Made by a program: the position numbers and the translations under genes. The notes under the pieces are model-generated. The model searched no databases. It had not been told where the DNA came from and worked only from the letters and a program-made list of their open reading frames with translations. Positions 39,620-54,181 of a DNA stretch of 64,000 bases are shown piece after piece. The stretch comes from Candidatus Hodarchaeota archaeon (GTDB taxonomy: Archaea; Asgardarchaeota; Heimdallarchaeia; Hodarchaeales; Hodarchaeaceae): positions 1 to 64,000 of the forward strand of contig JAEOSR010000063.1 of assembly GCA_016840285.1 (NCBI GenBank). The letters are read 5' to 3'. Within the stretch, counting starts at the first letter, position 1, and each line of letters starts with the position of its first letter.

Positions 39620-40591
39620 TTAAGAGGGATTGGAGAATAAAGTAAGTCGTTGATGGCACATTGGACATTGATTGAAGACTTTCAACCATTCTAGAAGGTG
39701 ATTTCGATGAAAAGAATTGTGACATGAAGGACATTCGACTGAATTATCTTGTGACCCTATAGGATACCGACAAATTACACAACTTTTTTCGCTCTTCTTT
39801 GCTTTTTCCCATGAGATATCACTGATTGACTCTCCCTCATAAGATCTCTCTACCGTTAAAATCAGTTCACCGGTACTATTCTGGTTTAATTTACCAAGTA
39901 TTTCACCTTGCGATAAAATATGCTCAAGTATCTGTTTTAACAAGCAATCATCTGTGATTTGATTTTGCATGTGCTTATGAACTTTGTAGAGTAAATAATC
40001 ATACTCAATTTCGTTTAATGGCCGAGAAAGCTTATTATTAATTGAATTTAGCATAATTTGCCGAATATTAGCTAAGAACTCAATATTTTTTTGTTTTCTC
40101 CTTGCTTCCTTTAGTGTTTCCTCCACTAACTTTTTAATCCCCCATAGCTCCTTTTGTATGTTAAGATTTCGAATCGAAGGAGAGTTTATCGAAATATCAT
40201 CTGAAGTTAGATTTAATATCTCTTCCATGCTAAAACAGAGTTCATCAATCTGTCTTAATGCTCCTTCTATAGATGCCACTTTTTGGAGTGGCTCAATTAA
40301 TTCGATTTGAACCGTTGCCTGTTGCACATCATAACGACGATTTATCAGCTCTTCTATGTAACGCGAAGTTTCTGAGAAAAACGGTCGTCGCAATGTTCTG
40401 TCTATTAAATATGTGAAAAAGATACTTAGAAAAAAACCAGTCAAGAATGTGTATTTATCGATATCAGATGAAGTTATTCCGATTGCATTCAGAAAAAATG
40501 TGACTCCTATAAATAATAATATTAAGATGATAATATTTCCTGTTGTTTTGTTTCGAGATAAGCGAGAGAGTTTTGTAACACTTGAAGCCAT
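39620..40591 (-). CDS. Membrane-anchored RING-type zinc-finger protein (candidate E3 ligase)
   Basis: 323 residues. Two N-terminal helices (about 19-38 and 47-64) anchor it, and a mostly helical region (75-235) follows. The C-terminus holds an eight-ligand zinc motif: C271, C274, C287, C290, H295, H298, C309 and C312. The text CVICRYPIG, CPSCHNSFHRNHLLEWL and CPMCHQRL follows the cross-brace RING pattern, with EWL and CPxC as in E3 ligases and His in place of the usual sixth Cys. RING proteins are known from Asgard ubiquitin systems, and this one would face the cytoplasm near the membrane. No ubiquitin, E1 or E2 gene is in the window. Confidence 0.72.
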   Translation of the reverse strand: MASSVTKLSRLSRNKTTGNIIILILLFIGVTFFLNAIGITSSDIDKYTFLTGFFLSIFFTYLIDRTLRRPFFSETSRYIEELINRRYDVQQATVQIELIEPLQKVASIEGALRQIDELCFSMEEILNLTSDDISINSPSIRNLNIQKELWGIKKLVEETLKEARRKQKNIEFLANIRQIMLNSINNKLSRPLNEIEYDYLLYKVHKHMQNQITDDCLLKQILEHILSQGEILGKLNQNSTGELILTVERSYEGESISDISWEKAKKSEKSCVICRYPIGSQDNSVECPSCHNSFHRNHLLEWLKVFNQCPMCHQRLTLFSNPS

Positions 40592-41931: not shown

Positions 41932-42666
41932 ATGGTTCGCCTTAAAGCAGTCTATTTAATCACTGACGAAGGTTTCTCAATTTATACCCAGTCTTTTGGG
42001 GCAACTGAGCAAGACCAGGATATGGTTGGCTCTCTTCTCATGGCTTTGAGAAGCTTCGGGAAGGAAGCCTTGGGAGAAGGTTCTCTGTCTAAAGTAGACT
42101 TTGGTGAAGGAGCAGATATGATCTTAGAGGCAGGAAAAAGGGTTATAGCAATTGCTGTTGTAGTTTTAGAAAAAGATGCCAAAGAACGGGAAGAATATAA
42201 TATTCGCAATGATTTATTAAAATTTGTTAGGAAATTTGAAGATATCTATGGAGAGGAGTTGGATGACCCCATTTTTCAGAAAAGTTCCTTTTCTGGAGTT
42301 GGAACACTAATTTCTGCTTATTTCTTCCGAGATAAAATGTCTAGGATCTTTGGTGATCAATTTGCTAGTCTGAATGAATATATAAAATATCCTACGACAT
42401 TATTGTTTGAAATAACTCCTCGTGGAGGGAAACTTTATGCGTTTTATCGAGCATTCCCTAAGATTATTGAAATAAGAGGAGATATACCACAAGAAAGACT
42501 TGATAATTTAATTGAAGATATGTTAGATAAGAACAGTATGGTCTCATTTAATGATTGCCTAGAACGCTTTGGGACTGATAAAAGTGAGAAGATTCTTGAA
42601 TTATTTAAATTTTTGACAGAACGAGGTATGTTTGAAGCGTACAATTTTGAACGAATAGCAGCTTGA
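41932..42666 (+). CDS. Longin/roadblock-like protein with C-terminal helical (wHTH-like) tail
   Basis: 244 residues with a GAGG SD motif 9 nt before the ATG. The N-terminal ~110 residues, AVYLITDEGFSIYTQSF, then LLMALRSFGKEALGEGSLSK and ADMILEAGKRVIAIAVVVL, run in the beta-beta-alpha-beta-beta order of longin/roadblock domains that serve small GTPases in Asgard archaea and eukaryotes. The C-terminal ~70 residues (NLIEDMLDKNSMVSFNDCLE) look like a small winged helix. It meets the coiled-coil gene of the tubulin-like operon tail to tail, with one base between the stops. Domain call by eye only. Confidence 0.55.
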   Translation: MVRLKAVYLITDEGFSIYTQSFGATEQDQDMVGSLLMALRSFGKEALGEGSLSKVDFGEGADMILEAGKRVIAIAVVVLEKDAKEREEYNIRNDLLKFVRKFEDIYGEELDDPIFQKSSFSGVGTLISAYFFRDKMSRIFGDQFASLNEYIKYPTTLLFEITPRGGKLYAFYRAFPKIIEIRGDIPQERLDNLIEDMLDKNSMVSFNDCLERFGTDKSEKILELFKFLTERGMFEAYNFERIAA

Positions 42667-42667
42667 C

Positions 42668-43519
42668 TCATGAAGATCGTTTCGTAGCTTGGATTACCAA
42701 TGCAGTCATTTTTTTAATTTCTTTCTTCATTGAAGCTAGTTCAGCAGTAACTTTTGTTTCAACTGCTGTATCTATTTGTTGTTTTACTACTTCAGGTAGA
42801 GCTGCGATATTCTGAGTTAATCGCTCTGTTACTTTAGTTAATTTTTGAAGAGTGCCATCTTGAACAGCTAAACGTTCTGTTACTGACGTTTTAAGCTCAT
42901 TTACTGTTGTTTCTAAATAAATTGCAATACGATCACGTAGTGATACCAATTCAACCTGAATAATTGCACTAACACGATCCCTTAGATCTGCTACAGTTGC
43001 TAATTGATCTGCTTGATTCTCGACCAGCGCATTTAAACTGCTTTCAACGTTGTTAAGTTTTTCGACTATTTCCCCAAAATGACCAACACTGGCTTCATAT
43101 AAGGCTGTAATTCTGTCGTTGGAGGTATTCACCTTGTCATTAATTTCTTTAGACAAGTTGCGCATGTTGCCAACAACATCTTCAACATAACTGACTTTGA
43201 TAAATTTCAGATCGTTTTTTGTCTCTTCAGAAGTTTTCTCAAACGTATTAAGAATGGTTCCAAGGGATTCCTCAAGACTCGAGATCATCTGGGGGAGATT
43301 TTCAATTGAAGTCTGTAACTCAGAACTTATTCTAGAGGATTCAACCTGTTCACGAATTTGTTCGAGTTTCTCTTCAAAATTCAGCAGTACCATTGAGAAC
43401 TTTTGGATTGATTCGGAAGGATCTTGAAATCCTTGAAGTGAGTTTTTAACAGTATTGATTGACTGCTTAATTTCCAAACTTATCTGTTGGATACTTTTAA
43501 TGCCATCTTCTATTCCCAT
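42668..43519 (-). CDS. Coiled-coil protein of the tubulin-like operon
   Basis: 283 residues from ATG 43519, chosen because GAGAGGT lies six bases upstream; a GTG at 43534 would include that SD and is less likely. Almost the whole protein is heptad-patterned helix (SIQQISLEIKQSINTVKNSL, SSLEESLGTILNTF, KLTKVTERLTQNI), with a basic end (KKEIKKM...TKRSS). The pattern resembles methyl-accepting or filament-like coiled coils, but there is no membrane helix. Last gene of the four-gene operon, 89 nt after the previous stop. Likely structural or adaptor role; inferred. Confidence 0.6.
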   Translation of the reverse strand: MGIEDGIKSIQQISLEIKQSINTVKNSLQGFQDPSESIQKFSMVLLNFEEKLEQIREQVESSRISSELQTSIENLPQMISSLEESLGTILNTFEKTSEETKNDLKFIKVSYVEDVVGNMRNLSKEINDKVNTSNDRITALYEASVGHFGEIVEKLNNVESSLNALVENQADQLATVADLRDRVSAIIQVELVSLRDRIAIYLETTVNELKTSVTERLAVQDGTLQKLTKVTERLTQNIAALPEVVKQQIDTAVETKVTAELASMKKEIKKMTALVIQATKRSS

Positions 43520-43525
43520 TTTCTT

Positions 43526-43532
43526 ACCTCTC
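43526..43532 (-). promoter_or_regulatory. Shine-Dalgarno site setting the start of the coiled-coil gene
   Basis: GAGAGGT on the minus strand, six bases before ATG 43519. It argues for the shorter 283-residue product. Confidence 0.6.
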
Positions 43533-43608
43533 ACTTGGTTCCTTCACTCATGACGAAAATAATTATGAAATTTAACTTTTTAATTTATATTGGATCACAA
43601 AAAAATTG

Positions 43609-44691
43609 TCATTTTAGACGTTTCAAAAAAAGAGTAAATCTTTCATTCTGTAAAAGTGAATCATTCAATCGATGGATCAGGATAATAGTTTCTGATAATA
43701 TAAAACGTTTCAAATCATTATCTAGGGTTTCTTGGAGCTCTAAATTGATTTCTTTGACAATATTAAAGGAAACATTAGGAATTCTCGATTCTAAGTCTCC
43801 AGTTCCTAGGTTATAATTCTTTAGAATACCTGATGAAATGCGGAGAGAATCCTGTAAGCTGCGAGTTTCATTAAAATATTCTGAAATGCTTTTATAGTAC
43901 AATTCTACAACATTTTGGATTTGATCTTGTTCTATCGATGTAAGAACTGAATCTTGTTCTGCAGGAAACATTTTACGAAGATTTTGAAGTAAGCGGGCGG
44001 CAGGTGCTTCACGTAAAAGCTTGCTTATCAGAGTTCTAAGTTTAAAGGAGGGAATTTGAATGATTTCAGACTGGTTAGAGAAGGGAGCATTTTGCTGCAC
44101 CTCATAACGGTGTAGTTCTTTGCATGCTGAAAAGTAGTAATTAGGAAAACTCAGTTGAGACAAGTTCGAGTAAGAGACTAGTAAGTTGTCAATGGATTCA
44201 ATTATACCCCATTTATCAATGTAGACTGCATTTTGCTGAAAAAAACCAAAAATTTTTTCTGGGACAGCCGGAGGTTTCTTTTCCAAAGCTATAGTTGACA
44301 TTGCAGCACTAGGAAGTCCCTCCATTAATGTAGCTACTTTGGAATAGATTGTTTCAATGTTTTCTAAGATTTCTAAACTTGATTCTGGTTGTGTGACCAT
44401 TTTAGAAAGGAGTTCCTGGGTTATGTTTAAACTCGTAATCATATCATCAGTAAGAGTATCCTCTTTATTCAGAACTTGAACTAAAGAGGTTATTAGGTTT
44501 ATAAGTAGGAGATTTAATCCTATTAAGATGTTAATCTTCTCACCCATATTCCCTCTGGATGTCCAAAAATCAGATGAGGGGGATTTTTGTTTGACTTGAT
44601 CAGGTTCGGTTTGTAATTGATCCTCTAATGATTCGTTAGAATTTGGACCCTTTTGGGTATATTCAAACCTTGGTGGATCTTTTCTGTCCAA
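43609..44691 (-). CDS. Helical protein of the tubulin-like operon, unknown function
   Basis: 360 residues. A polar, disordered-looking N-terminus (Pro, Gln, Ser and Lys rich, residues 1-48) is followed by an amphipathic-to-hydrophobic helix (ILIGLNLLLINLITSLVQVL, 54-73) that may bind a membrane or partner. The rest is all-helical: ELLREAPAARLL-type text (here KLLREAPAARLLQNLRKMFP), then long helices to the end (LQNERFTLFLKRLK). No known domain. It starts 14 nt downstream of the tubulin-like gene, so it is almost surely cotranscribed and a likely partner of the GTPase. Confidence 0.6.
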   Translation of the reverse strand: MDRKDPPRFEYTQKGPNSNESLEDQLQTEPDQVKQKSPSSDFWTSRGNMGEKINILIGLNLLLINLITSLVQVLNKEDTLTDDMITSLNITQELLSKMVTQPESSLEILENIETIYSKVATLMEGLPSAAMSTIALEKKPPAVPEKIFGFFQQNAVYIDKWGIIESIDNLLVSYSNLSQLSFPNYYFSACKELHRYEVQQNAPFSNQSEIIQIPSFKLRTLISKLLREAPAARLLQNLRKMFPAEQDSVLTSIEQDQIQNVVELYYKSISEYFNETRSLQDSLRISSGILKNYNLGTGDLESRIPNVSFNIVKEINLELQETLDNDLKRFILSETIILIHRLNDSLLQNERFTLFLKRLK

Positions 44692-44705
44692 TTTTATCTA
44701 GCACC

Positions 44706-46073
44706 TTATCCTTTTTCTGGCTTGATGTAATAACCAAATAATTTTTCCAAATCACTTACAGCTTCATCCAATTCTTTTCGTGTTGTACCTTTTGAACGTT
44801 TGAACCAATGTTGCTTTAATTCGGAGTCCCCACTATGAAGGTTTATGAGTGCTTTAGCTTCTTCAAGAATATCATGAAGTTCTGGAATTCTTGGCAAACC
44901 AAACAACAAAAGAAGAGATGCTCGTGTACTATCATCATCATAGGCACAATATGTTGGAGAAATACTCGCACCTTTAGCTAAAAAGGGAGCCAATGCTTTT
45001 TTCAAAAGCGGATCATATTCTACCCTGGCAATATTTCGGGAACCACTGAGGACTGAAAAAACAGAGGATGCCATGGGATTCGTCCCCATGTCTGTTAAGC
45101 TACAGTTAGAAAGAGTATATTCTACAGCAGTAGAAAGTTGAGAATCCATCCCTCCAATTTCTGGGAAAACGGACAAATCATCAAACATAGCCGGTACAAC
45201 GACACTATCTAACTTTAATGCAAAGTCACCAATATCAGTAGTGGGTAAAACCTCTTTTCCGACTTCTGGTACTCCAGGGGATAACATCTCAGCTATTGAT
45301 TCCAAAGCTAAAGGGTTAACTAATTCCACAAATGCTTCTTCTAGTTGGGTTGGATATGTCCCATCTTGACCGATGACAGTGGGGATACTAGAACTAACCT
45401 GTTCACTGCTTAAGTCAGCTAAGTCGTTTCCTATTTGACGACTCAATAAATCAACAGATTCGCCGCGTTGCCAGCTTAAAACCCTTTCAAGCATTGTTCT
45501 ATTTGAAAGTAGAAGTATCAAATCTGGCCCCATGTTTCCTTCCTCGAGTTGGAGCCTCAGTAATTTTGATAATGCCCAGACACTGTTAACGGCTTCAGAT
45601 GATTGATTTACGAATGGTAAGACCCCAAAGACATATATAAAGATTTTACGTTTTTCTTCTTCAGCAAACCGCTTTCTTAACAGTTTTATTAAAGCAGGCG
45701 TTCCCCCACATCCAGTACCTCCTCCGAAGCTAGTAAAAATGCAAAAACCACTAATTCCCTCATAACCCAAGCCTTGCAACTGATTTAAAATAATATCCTG
45801 AGAATTCATGACTGATTCGTACCCAGCAGAGAATTTTCCCCCAACTCCAATTTCTGCGTCCGAATAAAGCAGAGTTCGGTTCTTGGAAATAGAATATTTT
45901 TTTCGTGCTTTCAGTAAATCTCCACGATCAGTATTCAACACCAAATACTCTCTAATACGTTGAGGTAGCTCGCCTTTTTTGGATCTGGCTAAGTAGCTGC
46001 CAACAAGATTACTACCACATTCACCAATTCCAATTGCAAAGATCTCTGATTCTGGTCCTCCTTCAATTGACAT
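44706..46073 (-). CDS. Noncanonical tubulin/FtsZ/CetZ-superfamily GTPase
   Basis: 455 residues. IGIGECGSN at 14-22 is a T1-loop variant and SFGGGTGCGGTPAL at 115-128 is the tubulin signature (GGGTGxG), with C122 in place of Ser/Thr/Ala. LPTTDIGDFALKLDSVVVPA (277-296) resembles the T7 loop and helix H8 end, with D280 and D283 in the catalytic positions, so GTP hydrolysis on assembly is plausible. The C-terminal domain ends in a helical, charged tail. It is too divergent to be called FtsZ, CetZ or artubulin. Flanked by helical-protein genes, 38 nt and 14 nt away. Confidence 0.78.
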   Translation of the reverse strand: MSIEGGPESEIFAIGIGECGSNLVGSYLARSKKGELPQRIREYLVLNTDRGDLLKARKKYSISKNRTLLYSDAEIGVGGKFSAGYESVMNSQDIILNQLQGLGYEGISGFCIFTSFGGGTGCGGTPALIKLLRKRFAEEEKRKIFIYVFGVLPFVNQSSEAVNSVWALSKLLRLQLEEGNMGPDLILLLSNRTMLERVLSWQRGESVDLLSRQIGNDLADLSSEQVSSSIPTVIGQDGTYPTQLEEAFVELVNPLALESIAEMLSPGVPEVGKEVLPTTDIGDFALKLDSVVVPAMFDDLSVFPEIGGMDSQLSTAVEYTLSNCSLTDMGTNPMASSVFSVLSGSRNIARVEYDPLLKKALAPFLAKGASISPTYCAYDDDSTRASLLLLFGLPRIPELHDILEEAKALINLHSGDSELKQHWFKRSKGTTRKELDEAVSDLEKLFGYYIKPEKG

Positions 46074-46111
46074 TTAGACACACTCTTTTTTTATTTGTTT
46101 GTAGGGAGTTG

Positions 46112-49100
46112 TTACTTCAATTTAATTCCTGATTTAATTTCAATAAGCAATTTCATGACTAAGCTCAAATACGAACGGATTACTTCATTATGAGGATAGG
46201 TTTCTTTGATTTTCTTGGATATTTCTTTGTAAAATCGTAAATTCTCTTCTCTACTCTCTGTTGGTGTGTATCGTGGACGAAACATTCGAACAGCACGGTG
46301 CCAATGATTTAACTGGATTGACACTTTTTTCCACTCATTTCTTTGCTCATTTATTTGTGGTAATAAATCTAATATATATCTAAGATCATGAGAATCAAGG
46401 AATTCCTCACGAGCTTTTACTAATTCAGATAATGGAAATATTTTTTCTGACGCTTCCTTTGTATACCTCTTAAACACTTCTTGAATGTTAGAATAGTATT
46501 CTAACTCCCCTAACTCTGTCTGTAAGGAAGCATTTCGACTTTTTTCAATTGTTTTCATGATTTCAATCACAGAGCTTCGAACTGATACTAATTCGAGAAT
46601 AGCTCCCGTTAAGCGACCAACATGATCTGTTGTAGCTACTTCTTGAAAACGATTTAGGTATGCAAGATCAACCCGCTCGTCCTGACGTAAGTCAATTTGA
46701 TAATGATTAAATAAATATTCTACGGTATCTTGAATTTCAGTAATATAGCGTTTACCCATTGATCGAATTTCTCGACATGCTTTAGGATCAGTCTGTAAGT
46801 TATCAATTTCGATGAAAACATCTGTTACTTCTCGTAATTGAACATCTTCCTGGTTTTTGACAATTATTTGACTAAAATTTTCAATATACCCTCCAACAAA
46901 CTCAATAATATTAATCCCGACTTCTTTCAAATCGTTAACATTTTTCAAAACCCTTCGTGATTCTTGTACTCCATGTGCGAGTAAAACTGATAATATTTCA
47001 GTATCATAGAGGAATATCAGCTGTCTTAATTTGTGAGCTAATCGCTCATGAGAGACTTCTTCAGCTTCAAAATCAGAAACTTTCTTCTCTGCACTAAAAA
47101 TAGCATCATCAAGAGGTGTTATTTCATTTATCCGAGGAAGACTAACTCTTAACCAATTATAGAGATTTTGATGAAGTTTGGCTAAGGAATCTTTTGCCAT
47201 CTGTAAGCTTTCCAAGCTATAACTCTCAAAAACATTGACTAAGCGTACAATATCTTTATGAGTTTTGATTTCATCCATTTTTTCAGTCATAAGATTTATA
47301 GTTTCATCAAAAAAGTCTGCATACTGGCTAGGAAGTTTTGAATAGTCCTGTATGTGCGAAGAAATTTCACGTTCCATTTGTTCTGCTAATGTAGAAGCTT
47401 TCCGACCAACAAAAGCTGATAATTGCCAAAATTCTGTTAGAGCTTCAGAATAATCAAGGTTATCGACTTCTTTATCAGTAGAATAAATTAAGCTGGTCTT
47501 TCGAGATTTTAATAATCTAAATAGTCTTCTATCGACTCCTTCGAGATTTCCTATTTGTTTTTTCAATTCGATAAGAATATCATTCTTATATTCTTCAATC
47601 GTTTCTAAGAAAGAAATATATTCTTTGATTATAGCCTCAATATTTCCTAATTCTGAATATTCATCCACTGAATCTACAATTTGGTTACGTTTTTCCCGTA
47701 AATCGAATCGTGTCTCTATAGGAATTAATGGGAAGGGAATTGATTTTAAATTTTCACGGATTCGTGAGGAGATCTTATATTTCCACAAAGGGATCTTTTC
47801 ATACTCATCTAACAACTCCTGAATACTTTTTTGAGCTGCTTCACTAACCTCCTCTCTAAAGGATTTTAGATCGTCTACTGTGAGAGTTGGAACGAGAATT
47901 TTTAATTTTGGAGGAATTGTTTCGAGATTAATAAGTTGATTGTAAATGGGGTGTGTCTCATTATCTATTTTATTCCAAAGTTCAGTTTTGATATTTGCGT
48001 TGAGTCTATGCAATCCCTCAATCTCATGAACTAAGTCACGTATATCAATTTCTTCGGCAATTTTCTGCTTTCTTTGATAATCGATTTGATCTTTCAGGTC
48101 TACAGATAGAATGTCTCGTAAACTTTCACGAGAATCATATAGATTTAACAAATTTTGTCTAAGGCTTTGTTGAGCTGGTTTAGAAAAATATGCAACCAAA
48201 CGGGTCTCCCAATCTTTAATTTCACGAGCTTTACTACTCAATTCACTGGGACTTAGAGCCTCAAAATCACGAATGATTGGTATCTGTGGCCCTTCACTTA
48301 AGTTGATGACCTCTTGGATATGTGGATTTTCTAGTAGTCTGAAAAAATAGTTCTGACATTCTTCTGCTAATGATGATTTCAGGTCATGATACCGTTTTGC
48401 TAATTCAACCCATTCTTGAAGGTCGCTTGTTTTTGCTGCTTCTTTCTCAATCGCACGTACTTTTTTTTCAAAATCGGGAGGAACAGGTATCTTCATCGCA
48501 CGAATAGCTTTGGATGAGTTAATTAGCTCTGACGTACTTAGTATTTTCTTTGTAGCAATAATCTGCTGTTGACGCCAAGAACGTATTTTCTCGATATCTT
48601 GGATGATGATTGGTATACTTGTAGATGAAATATCTGTTTCAGGAACTGGGGAGAACGAAGATTCTAATCCTTCTTTCCCAAAAATCTGTATAATACGTCC
48701 AATTTGATCATCTGTTTCTGTCTTGAGGGATATCTCATATGTTCGCAAAATATTGATGAACTCATTACTAAGAGAATTTAACCGTTTTTCTAATGAAATG
48801 AGGGTTTCTACTGAAGTTGTCCTGTCCGCACTGGTCTGAACATCTTGAACTTCCTCTTTTAATAAATCAATTTTACTCCAAAGGTCTAAACCAATTGATG
48901 CGACAGTATCAATATGTTGCTGTAGCTCAGAAGACATTTGAACAATTGCCAGTTGAATTTTACCTTCTGTACCCTTCCGTCGTTGCTTTAAATACGCGTT
49001 TTCAGCTTCTAACAGGCTATAAACTTCAAGCAAATCTGGAATCGTCATCACATGAATGCTAGTTTTTGTCGTCTGGTTCGTTACTCGAACCTTTTCTTCA

Positions 49101-49627
49101 TCAAAATTAACAAATTTTCCATAGAGCTCGATAATCTCACGATTAAACAACAAGATTGAAACATTTTTTCCTCGTAGAACCTCAGAAATCTGATTATATG
49201 TCCTAAGAACATTTGAACTGAACCTCAAGATTTCATTTACATCGAAACTTGGGATTTGTAGTTTACGAATTGTCTCCGTTTCCTGGGGAATAAATTTCGC
49301 TATCTCTTTGATGTTATTTGCTAGATCAAAGTAAATTTTACGAAATCCAACCAAAAGAGCGTTTAATAACTCCTCAGTCAGCTTGTTGTACTTTTCTTTA
49401 TCTTGGGTAAGAGTTTTTTTAATTCCCCTCTTTTTAAAAAAGCCAGCTTTAGGCAAAGCTGTCTCTAATTTTTCAATTTCTATCACTAATTTTTGAGCTT
49501 CATTTAAAGCGGAGACAACTTGCACTGTAGGATCAATTGAGCGTAATTCAGTCACTAAATCTCTAATATTATGAAGAACTTCCTTTGATACGAGAAGCTT
49601 TCCTTCTGAGGTCATATTAACTAGCAT
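46112..49627 (-). CDS. Giant helical/coiled-coil protein of the tubulin-like operon
   Basis: 1171 residues from ATG 49627 (an ATG four codons later is an alternative; the AAAGG just before 49627 is too close for that start and about 12 nt from the second). Nearly all helical with many Leu/Ile/Glu/Lys/Arg heptads and recurring 'LVHEIEGL', 'LRSIDP', 'ELVSVRSSVIEIM' style segments; no transmembrane helix and no enzymatic motif. It may be built of spectrin-like or other helical repeats of ~100 residues. First gene of the operon. Its size and all-helical nature suggest a scaffold, linker or motor-like tether for the GTPase filament; inferred. Confidence 0.65.
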   Translation of the reverse strand: MLVNMTSEGKLLVSKEVLHNIRDLVTELRSIDPTVQVVSALNEAQKLVIEIEKLETALPKAGFFKKRGIKKTLTQDKEKYNKLTEELLNALLVGFRKIYFDLANNIKEIAKFIPQETETIRKLQIPSFDVNEILRFSSNVLRTYNQISEVLRGKNVSILLFNREIIELYGKFVNFDEEKVRVTNQTTKTSIHVMTIPDLLEVYSLLEAENAYLKQRRKGTEGKIQLAIVQMSSELQQHIDTVASIGLDLWSKIDLLKEEVQDVQTSADRTTSVETLISLEKRLNSLSNEFINILRTYEISLKTETDDQIGRIIQIFGKEGLESSFSPVPETDISSTSIPIIIQDIEKIRSWRQQQIIATKKILSTSELINSSKAIRAMKIPVPPDFEKKVRAIEKEAAKTSDLQEWVELAKRYHDLKSSLAEECQNYFFRLLENPHIQEVINLSEGPQIPIIRDFEALSPSELSSKAREIKDWETRLVAYFSKPAQQSLRQNLLNLYDSRESLRDILSVDLKDQIDYQRKQKIAEEIDIRDLVHEIEGLHRLNANIKTELWNKIDNETHPIYNQLINLETIPPKLKILVPTLTVDDLKSFREEVSEAAQKSIQELLDEYEKIPLWKYKISSRIRENLKSIPFPLIPIETRFDLREKRNQIVDSVDEYSELGNIEAIIKEYISFLETIEEYKNDILIELKKQIGNLEGVDRRLFRLLKSRKTSLIYSTDKEVDNLDYSEALTEFWQLSAFVGRKASTLAEQMEREISSHIQDYSKLPSQYADFFDETINLMTEKMDEIKTHKDIVRLVNVFESYSLESLQMAKDSLAKLHQNLYNWLRVSLPRINEITPLDDAIFSAEKKVSDFEAEEVSHERLAHKLRQLIFLYDTEILSVLLAHGVQESRRVLKNVNDLKEVGINIIEFVGGYIENFSQIIVKNQEDVQLREVTDVFIEIDNLQTDPKACREIRSMGKRYITEIQDTVEYLFNHYQIDLRQDERVDLAYLNRFQEVATTDHVGRLTGAILELVSVRSSVIEIMKTIEKSRNASLQTELGELEYYSNIQEVFKRYTKEASEKIFPLSELVKAREEFLDSHDLRYILDLLPQINEQRNEWKKVSIQLNHWHRAVRMFRPRYTPTESREENLRFYKEISKKIKETYPHNEVIRSYLSLVMKLLIEIKSGIKLK

Positions 49628-53194: not shown

Positions 53195-54154
53195 TCATGT
53201 GTTCCACTCATTATTACTCTCAGATTGTACTTTTGGTTTATAAATGTCTAAAGGCCATTGTTTTTTCATTAATTTTAATAATATACGAGAATCAAATTGA
53301 TCAATTTCAATCGATGCTGAAGCTGTTTTCATTAATCTTTCAGCAATCAGTTTGGCTCGTACAACGGAATCTGAGTAGCCAATTATGAGTCCAATTACTA
53401 AAGGATGATTCTTTACGATAGTGAGCTGCAGGTCAGACGCAGTAATTACTTCCATTCCAGTTGGGTTTTTTGTTAACCCTTTTACAGTTTCACTAATACC
53501 CATATTTAACTGATCCAAAATCAAGCGGTTTATGTTTGTGAACTTCGTTGTATATATCTGATGAGACTCTAGATTGATTAAAATCACCACTCGTACTTTA
53601 CATTTGAATGTAGACTCTTCTCCTGTGAGGACATCAGCTACCCAATCAAAAGCATCGTAAAAGTTTTCACCAGTTTTTGCAGAGATTCGAAAGAGCCCGA
53701 CTGGTCTAGCAGATCTTTGAGCACGGGGTAAATCAAGATCGTTTACAATAAGATCAAAAGCTCGAGCACCAGGTAGGTCGATTTTATTTGCAATAAAAAG
53801 GACAGGTACTTTCTCGTTTCGCTGGATTGAATCCCAAAAAGCTTTTGATGCTTCTGTAAGGCGAAGGTCAGCACTATCTAACACAAAAACGATAGCTGAA
53901 GCTTTTTCTAAGGAGTCATGCCAGAGAAGGTTTCGATAGATTTCTTGCCCACCCAAATCAACCAAATTGAACTCAATCTGCCGATATTTTACCGTTCGAT
54001 AGTTAACACCGAGAGTTCGTGTTGTAGGTACAAATTCTGAGCGTAATAACCGATTCACAATTGTGGTTTTTCCAGCGCCGTCGAGACCTATAACAGTTAT
54101 TTCATATTTCTCGACTTTCTTGCCTTTGAATATTCTTCGCAATATGCTCGACAC
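53195..54154 (-). CDS. Arf-like small GTPase fused to a longin-like domain
   Basis: 319 residues from GTG 54154, chosen because CCACC on the plus strand (GGTGG leftward) lies six bases upstream; an in-frame TTG at 54181 adds nine residues and lacks an SD. G motifs: GLDGAGKT (23-30), DLGGQE (66-71), NKID (123-126) and SAK (158-160), all intact, with Gln71 in the switch II position for hydrolysis. Residues ~185-300 (VRVVILINLESHQIYTTKF, ASDLQLTIVKNHPLVIGLII) have the longin/roadblock beta-alpha order. No N-terminal myristoylation glycine. A GTPase with its own longin partner is an Asgard-type trafficking component. Confidence 0.82.
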   Translation of the reverse strand: MSSILRRIFKGKKVEKYEITVIGLDGAGKTTIVNRLLRSEFVPTTRTLGVNYRTVKYRQIEFNLVDLGGQEIYRNLLWHDSLEKASAIVFVLDSADLRLTEASKAFWDSIQRNEKVPVLFIANKIDLPGARAFDLIVNDLDLPRAQRSARPVGLFRISAKTGENFYDAFDWVADVLTGEESTFKCKVRVVILINLESHQIYTTKFTNINRLILDQLNMGISETVKGLTKNPTGMEVITASDLQLTIVKNHPLVIGLIIGYSDSVVRAKLIAERLMKTASASIEIDQFDSRILLKLMKKQWPLDIYKPKVQSESNNEWNT

Positions 54155-54160
54155 TGATAA

Positions 54161-54165
54161 CCACC
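54161..54165 (-). promoter_or_regulatory. Shine-Dalgarno site setting the Arf-like gene start
   Basis: GGTGG read leftward, six bases before GTG 54154. It supports the 319-residue start over the upstream TTG. Confidence 0.5.
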
Positions 54166-54181
54166 GATTCCTATTGATCAA

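Follow-up and report, generated by a model that had tools for sequence, protein, structure and literature searches.

The 64,000-nucleotide stretch of DNA analysed here (the window; positions 1 to 64,000 of contig JAEOSR010000063.1, from a Candidatus Hodarchaeota archaeon) contains a leftward operon of four genes that centres on a tubulin-superfamily GTPase, designated AGT. The other three genes encode a very long, predicted helical protein (GIANT) and two shorter proteins (H360 and H283), and the four are arranged as follows, in the order of transcription.

46112..49627, minus strand: GIANT, a giant, predicted helical protein of 1171 residues and the first gene of the operon (open reading frame, ORF).
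44706..46073, minus strand: AGT, a tubulin-superfamily GTPase of 455 residues (ORF and PF00091 match).
43609..44691, minus strand: H360, a predicted helical partner of 360 residues with a TTG start (ORF).
42668..43519, minus strand: H283, a lineage-specific fourth gene of 283 residues with weak coiled-coil-type matches (ORF; ATG start suggested by relatives).

All four ORFs of the array that had been described in the first-pass annotation of this DNA were recovered at the same coordinates, and its gaps of 38, 14 and 89 nucleotides (nt) are reproduced when H283 starts at an internal ATG. The ORF read from GTG (42668-43534) encodes 288 residues, and the eight other rows of the alignment start at the internal ATG, giving 283. 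The three motifs picked out in that annotation, IGIGECGSN, GGGTGCG and TTDIGDF, were all located in the 455-residue protein. None of the 1171-, 360- and 288/283-residue proteins matches a Pfam or NCBIfam family above its cut-off. Assignment to an Asgard archaeon, proposed from the sequence alone, agrees with the nearest named locus (L001, 98% identity), which is a Candidatus Heimdallarchaeota chromosome, and with named relatives that include Candidatus Hodarchaeales.

AGT from the window matches PF00091 with 64.6 bits in a Pfam scan (cut-off 33; E = 2e-17), and the same domain is matched by 24 of 24 AGT members at E ≤ 1, the best at 1.9e-20. Residue conservation was read from an alignment of 125 rows comprising the 120 listed proteins of the family search described below, the window protein again (which is also P0001 and so appears twice) and four divergent proteins. 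In the T4 loop, GGGTGCG, five of the seven positions are the same in all 125 rows and the remaining pair in 124 and 123 rows, and in the T7 motif the two acidic residues, Asp280 and Asp283, are invariant. The motifs thus go beyond chance resemblance. Cys122, within GGGTGCG, is also invariant, at a position where FtsZ has Thr or Ser according to excerpts of PMC12583498; the same excerpts give the FtsZ T7 motif as NxDxx[D/E]. Two positions ahead of the first T7 aspartate, AGT has Thr in 120 of 125 rows and Asn in only two.

A search against 5.8 billion proteins, with scoring limited to the 7993 candidates that had the most words in common, returned at least 153 relatives of AGT at E ≤ 0.001; among the 120 of these 153 that were listed, identity is 52% or higher throughout and every given name is Asgard. 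The member from Heimdallarchaeota LC_3 carries the source name "Tubulin-like protein CetZ", the best PDB sequence matches of AGT are 3zid, 4b46 and 4b45, which we take to be CetZ structures, and in profile comparisons CetZ is nearest (E = 6e-13), followed by tubulin (4e-9) and FtsZ (1e-8). These results favour the explanation that AGT is a divergent form of CetZ, in other words a tubulin-like protein for cell shape whose neighbours are coiled-coil proteins, and would add only a new branch to a known family. We regard this as rather unlikely, since the C-terminal CetZ domain (CetZ_C, PF21011) was found in none of 24 AGT members at E ≤ 1 and in none of six genomes, with Haloferax volcanii as positive control, and since the CetZ rows of a phylogenetic tree, although all from Halobacteria, form a clade of their own without AGT.

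The tree contains 54 rows, including 22 of AGT (four from a divergent clade), 17 of FtsZ, eight of CetZ and three of Asgard tubulin. The AGT rows are set apart from all others by a branch supported at 100/99. The FtsZ rows (16 from Asgard genomes and one haloarchaeal) lie on one side of a branch that excludes AGT (100/98), the eight CetZ rows, with no Thermococcales or methanogen CetZ among them, branch apart from AGT (98/99), and the three Asgard tubulins form their own branch (100/99) in a tree that holds no eukaryotic tubulin. One Bacillus plasmid sequence, which we labelled TubZ, sits away from AGT on a long branch. How AGT, CetZ, FtsZ and tubulin are ordered at the base of the tree is unsettled, with a program warning of long branches meeting, and this order is not used. 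The CetZ rows were identified in three ways: (i) P0123 is named CetZ by UniRef, (ii) the five P rows carry PF21011, L132 being the query that found them, and (iii) L133 and L134 were taken as CetZ because they score 301 and 324 bits against P0123. Asgard FtsZ rows were assigned by similarity to the FtsZ of genome G001, which itself matches annotated ftsZ genes. AGT scores 31.7 bits against the FtsZ family TIGR00065 (cut-off 295.2) and, in a check suggested with the original annotation, 20.9 bits over 64 residues against Tubulin_2 (PF13809), below the cut-off of 27. The description of AGT as a noncanonical GTPase is upheld in that AGT lies outside the FtsZ, halobacterial CetZ and Asgard tubulin rows of this tree.

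Gene neighbourhoods were compared at 63 AGT loci, obtained by scanning contigs of bacterial and archaeal genomes. Their record titles name Thorarchaeota, in which AGT is frequent, Hermodarchaeota, Borrarchaeota, Sifarchaeum, Hodarchaeota, Heimdallarchaeota and a few Lokiarchaeota or simply archaeon. With ORFs shorter than 120 residues upstream or 100 downstream skipped, and sides with 600 nt or less left unscored, GIANT is the next same-strand gene upstream of AGT in 56 of 58 loci and H360 the next gene downstream in 53 of 56; both flank AGT in 46 of 51, the median distances being 12 and 14 nt. Homologues of AGT elsewhere thus lie beside the helical partners, and the outcome that the first-pass annotation had named as refuting its proposal did not arise. 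The regular company of GIANT, together with the substitution of Thr for the Asn of the FtsZ T7 motif, would also suit a non-polymerising AGT that serves as a GTP-bound scaffold or switch regulating a GIANT tether. The invariance of both T7 acidic residues in all 125 rows argues against that explanation, which we consider improbable.

Among 227 Asgard-phylum genomes, for which no completeness figures are given, AGT was matched in 75, or 72 after removal of three weak matches (G003, G172 and G173; 18 to 36 bits) that look like cross-hits to FtsZ; fragments were kept, such as that of G068 (43 residues, 40.8 bits), which adjoins H360. GIANT was found in 70 genomes, comprising 69 of the 72 with AGT and one of the 155 without it, and in that one (G187) the match reaches the contig end on the side of the GTPase. 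H360 was found in 68 genomes, all among the 72 with AGT and none among the other 155, and all three genes occur together in 65 of the 72. These counts follow lineages and so are not independent.

Neighbouring genes might be kept together through shared ancestry of the region only, with no common function, and many other neighbours do look shared among the loci of Thorarchaeota, and also among those of the window's lineage, when the length and strand of the genes are compared. All genes of at least 120 residues were compared between six loci, namely one from each of four lineages (~21 kb each), one from the divergent clade (11 kb) and one paralogous operon. Across all 15 pairs only two matches fall outside the triad of GTPase, GIANT and H360: a CoA-ligase-like gene common to the Borrarchaeota and Thorarchaeota loci, and a match (E = 1.8e-7) between the two operons of one genome. 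No triad match at E ≤ 1e-3 was obtained for H360 between Borrarchaeota and the divergent clade or for GIANT between the divergent clade and the paralogue. The divergent clade (G004-G007), in which GIANT is only 17 to 18% identical to the Thorarchaeota reference, keeps the triad order with ORFs that overlap or nearly touch. The triad is nearly the sole shared content among the six loci and its adjacency is not general synteny, so that shared ancestry alone is a very remote explanation.

The predicted helical character of the two larger partners agrees with AlphaFold2 models. An 896-residue relative of GIANT, modelled from 27 sequences, consists of helices only, with a mean predicted local distance difference test score (pLDDT) of 86 and a predicted template modelling score (pTM) of 0.38, and H360, modelled from 19 sequences, is helical apart from two short strands (mean pLDDT 76, pTM 0.60), its C-terminal part being confident. 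GIANT ORFs away from locus ends range from 894 to 1311 residues except for two shorter ones (287 and 659). A profile of GIANT residues 200-330 has an additional match elsewhere in the protein in 26 of 27 sequences, with an independent E value below 0.05, and this weak internal similarity suggests that the protein is built of diverged helical units. Among PDB sequences the GIANT family profile has no match better than E = 0.11. A profile search with H360, in which 7998 candidates were scored, found at least 83 proteins, and every given name is Asgard. The hydrophobic helix of the window protein (Kyte-Doolittle value 2.15) suggested a membrane anchor in H360, which was rejected as a general feature when only six of 19 rows, including the window, were found to reach 1.6.

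H283 gives a strong match in 10 of 227 genomes, after four weak matches (20 to 22 bits) had been dropped from 14, and in all 10 it is the next match after H360, within ~200 nt; it is an addition of the window's lineage. The proposal of dedicated helical partners consequently holds for GIANT and usually for H360, which are kept adjacent to AGT, and for the 283-residue gene in the window's lineage only. The core is two genes, GIANT and AGT, usually joined by H360 as a third. A 468-residue gene that follows H360 in Thorarchaeota and Borrarchaeota was rejected as a fourth partner because CoA-binding and succinyl-CoA-ligase domains are present in the member that was tested, and it is taken for a metabolic neighbour.

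A second operon occurs in three of the 227 genomes (G001, G043 and G047), all relatives of the window, and comprises, in this order, a 310-residue gene, a second GIANT and a second AGT, without H360. One weak match (21 bits) was dropped from four in counting the 310-residue gene. Loci with the paralogous operon are:

L034:5556-11314: paralogous operon (310-residue gene, second GIANT, second AGT).
L039:309-6099: paralogous operon (310-residue gene, second GIANT, second AGT).
L043:2403-8158: paralogous operon (310-residue gene, second GIANT, second AGT).

A comparison of the 310-residue protein with H360 revealed no recognisable relation (hhalign probability 0.04%). Since the second operon keeps the GTPase and GIANT but has no H360, the GTPase and GIANT make up the most constant pair. 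The operon at L034 adjoins a Rag-like GTPase.

TubZ/TubR-like systems, in which a filament, an adaptor and a binding site partition DNA or cargo, generally encode a filament-type GTPase together with a small adaptor in a single operon. For the AGT operon such a role appears distinctly improbable: 72,556 plasmid records contain no match at E ≤ 1e-5, the system is found on whole chromosomes, and no partner has a DNA-binding family above the Pfam cut-off.

We consider it probable, though well short of assured, that these genes constitute a chromosomal Asgard system around a distinct tubulin-superfamily GTPase, with AGT as a filament, GIANT as its tether or cross-linker and H360 as an exchangeable component. 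AGT would form head-to-tail polymers with GTP, in which each T7 loop completes the active site of the adjoining subunit. GIANT, whose length differs between lineages, would bind these filaments as an extended rod, spacing them, cross-linking them or tethering them to membrane or cargo, and H360 may act as a replaceable adaptor or regulator, being seen as replaceable because the paralogous operon encodes the unrelated 310-residue protein in its stead. The likeliest role would be in cell shape or positioning rather than division. PF00091 matches as strong as those of FtsZ (best E value no higher than 1e-39, compared with ~1e-13 to 1e-20 for AGT) occur in 68 of the 72 AGT genomes, the exceptions being G070, G072, G176 and G223, and the presence of FtsZ in most AGT genomes argues against a primary role in division. 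The cytoskeletal or cargo-positioning machine put forward in the first-pass annotation is likewise what we would infer from the sequences.

Several observations weigh against this interpretation. The profile similarity of AGT to CetZ, FtsZ and tubulin spans the N-terminal half only, so that a tubulin-like C-terminal domain is putative. Neither GIANT nor H360 has a significant fold match, and the rod shape of GIANT is itself conjectural at a pTM of only 0.38. GIANT is not directly upstream of AGT at L006 and L007, where mutually related, highly charged ORFs without a Pfam match (L007:6154-9762, 1202 residues; L006:7325-9646, 773 residues) directly precede the GTPase, that of L007 standing between the GTPase and GIANT. 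H360 is missing at three of 56 loci, which are the paralogue loci L034, L039 and L043. Of the 72 AGT genomes, three gave no GIANT and four no H360, and the system is absent from 155 of the 227 genomes.

Other genes were noted around the operon. In the window these are a RING-H2 finger protein (39620-40591, minus strand; PF13639, 27.6 bits against a cut-off of 27.3), a 244-residue gene without a Pfam match that is convergent with the operon (41932-42666, plus strand) and has relatives at the same place in eight loci of the window's lineage, and a small GTPase of the Arf family that is extended by ~145 residues at its C terminus (53195-54181, minus strand). A divergent neighbour of 600-700 residues lies upstream of 26 of 52 GIANT genes; the only one scanned for domains (L016:5116-7032, minus strand), upstream of GIANT and divergent from the operon, is WD40-propeller-like.

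Among known prokaryotes, Asgard archaea are the nearest relatives of eukaryotes, and actin, tubulins and FtsZ have been studied as parts of the Asgard cytoskeleton. AGT with GIANT and usually a third helper looks like a little-studied skeleton-type cell machine, another Asgard tubulin-superfamily system with its own partners that is present in 72 of the 227 genomes and directly testable by expression of the three proteins. It resembles CetZ in its PF00091 domain and in profile comparisons but differs in the absence of CetZ_C, in forming a clade separate from halobacterial CetZ and in its dedicated GIANT and H360 partners. FtsZ1 and FtsZ2 share PF00091 and the T7 acidic pair with AGT, which falls far below the TIGR00065 cut-off, belongs to a separate clade and mostly occurs in addition to FtsZ. 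FtsZl and Tubulin_2 (PF13809) proteins are divergent tubulin-superfamily GTPases with dedicated neighbours, though with partners other than those of AGT, which lies below the PF13809 cut-off.

Non-canonical tubulin-superfamily members exist in Asgard archaea according to excerpts of PMC9856176; portions of PMC13394414 and PMC13371889 treat Asgard tubulins, and part of PMC12583498 treats Odinarchaeal FtsZ. Neither the excerpts of PMC12993045 nor those of PMC10936438 mention an AGT-GIANT operon, and no description of the operon was found in the open-licence PubMed Central literature, preprints being outside its scope. The earlier remark that no such family had been described was nevertheless too strong: Asg.Tub, a CetZ-like Asgardarchaeota group placed between CetZ and tubulin and found in Heimdallarchaeia and Lokiarchaeia, is in print, with unknown and coiled-coil genes around proteins of its type (PMC9871819, 2023, in the sections on Asg.Tub). 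Compared by description only, Asg.Tub and AGT are alike as Asgard CetZ-like paralogues with coiled-coil or unknown neighbours. Those sections describe no conserved partner operon, however, the paper calls such groups scarce, and "Thorarch" is absent from the main text, whereas AGT is frequent in Thorarchaeota. Three other very divergent tubulin-superfamily proteins of Asgard genomes (L110, L117 and L126) form a separate clade in our tree, and Asg.Tub as published might correspond to this clade instead of AGT.

AtubA/B/C and OdinTubulin belong to the same superfamily and also come from Asgard archaea, and AtubAB is encoded in an operon; they are bona fide tubulins, without a conserved genomic context between groups, as stated in parts of PMC13394414, and Asgard tubulins occur in few Asgard genomes according to excerpts of PMC12993045. 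The Asgard tubulin rows of our tree are a clade separate from AGT. An arrangement like that of AtubAB, with two tandem tubulin-type genes, was seen in genome G037 (L111:177-2760). At its fullest, our proposal, for which we would claim slightly less than an even chance, is that AGT represents a further Asgard cytoskeletal system in which a GTPase filament has co-evolved with a giant helical rod of lineage-dependent length, the GTPase-rod pair occurring twice in certain relatives of the window, where it has acquired a new partner, and that this system differs both from FtsZ and from the microtubules of AtubAB, being much more widely distributed than the latter.

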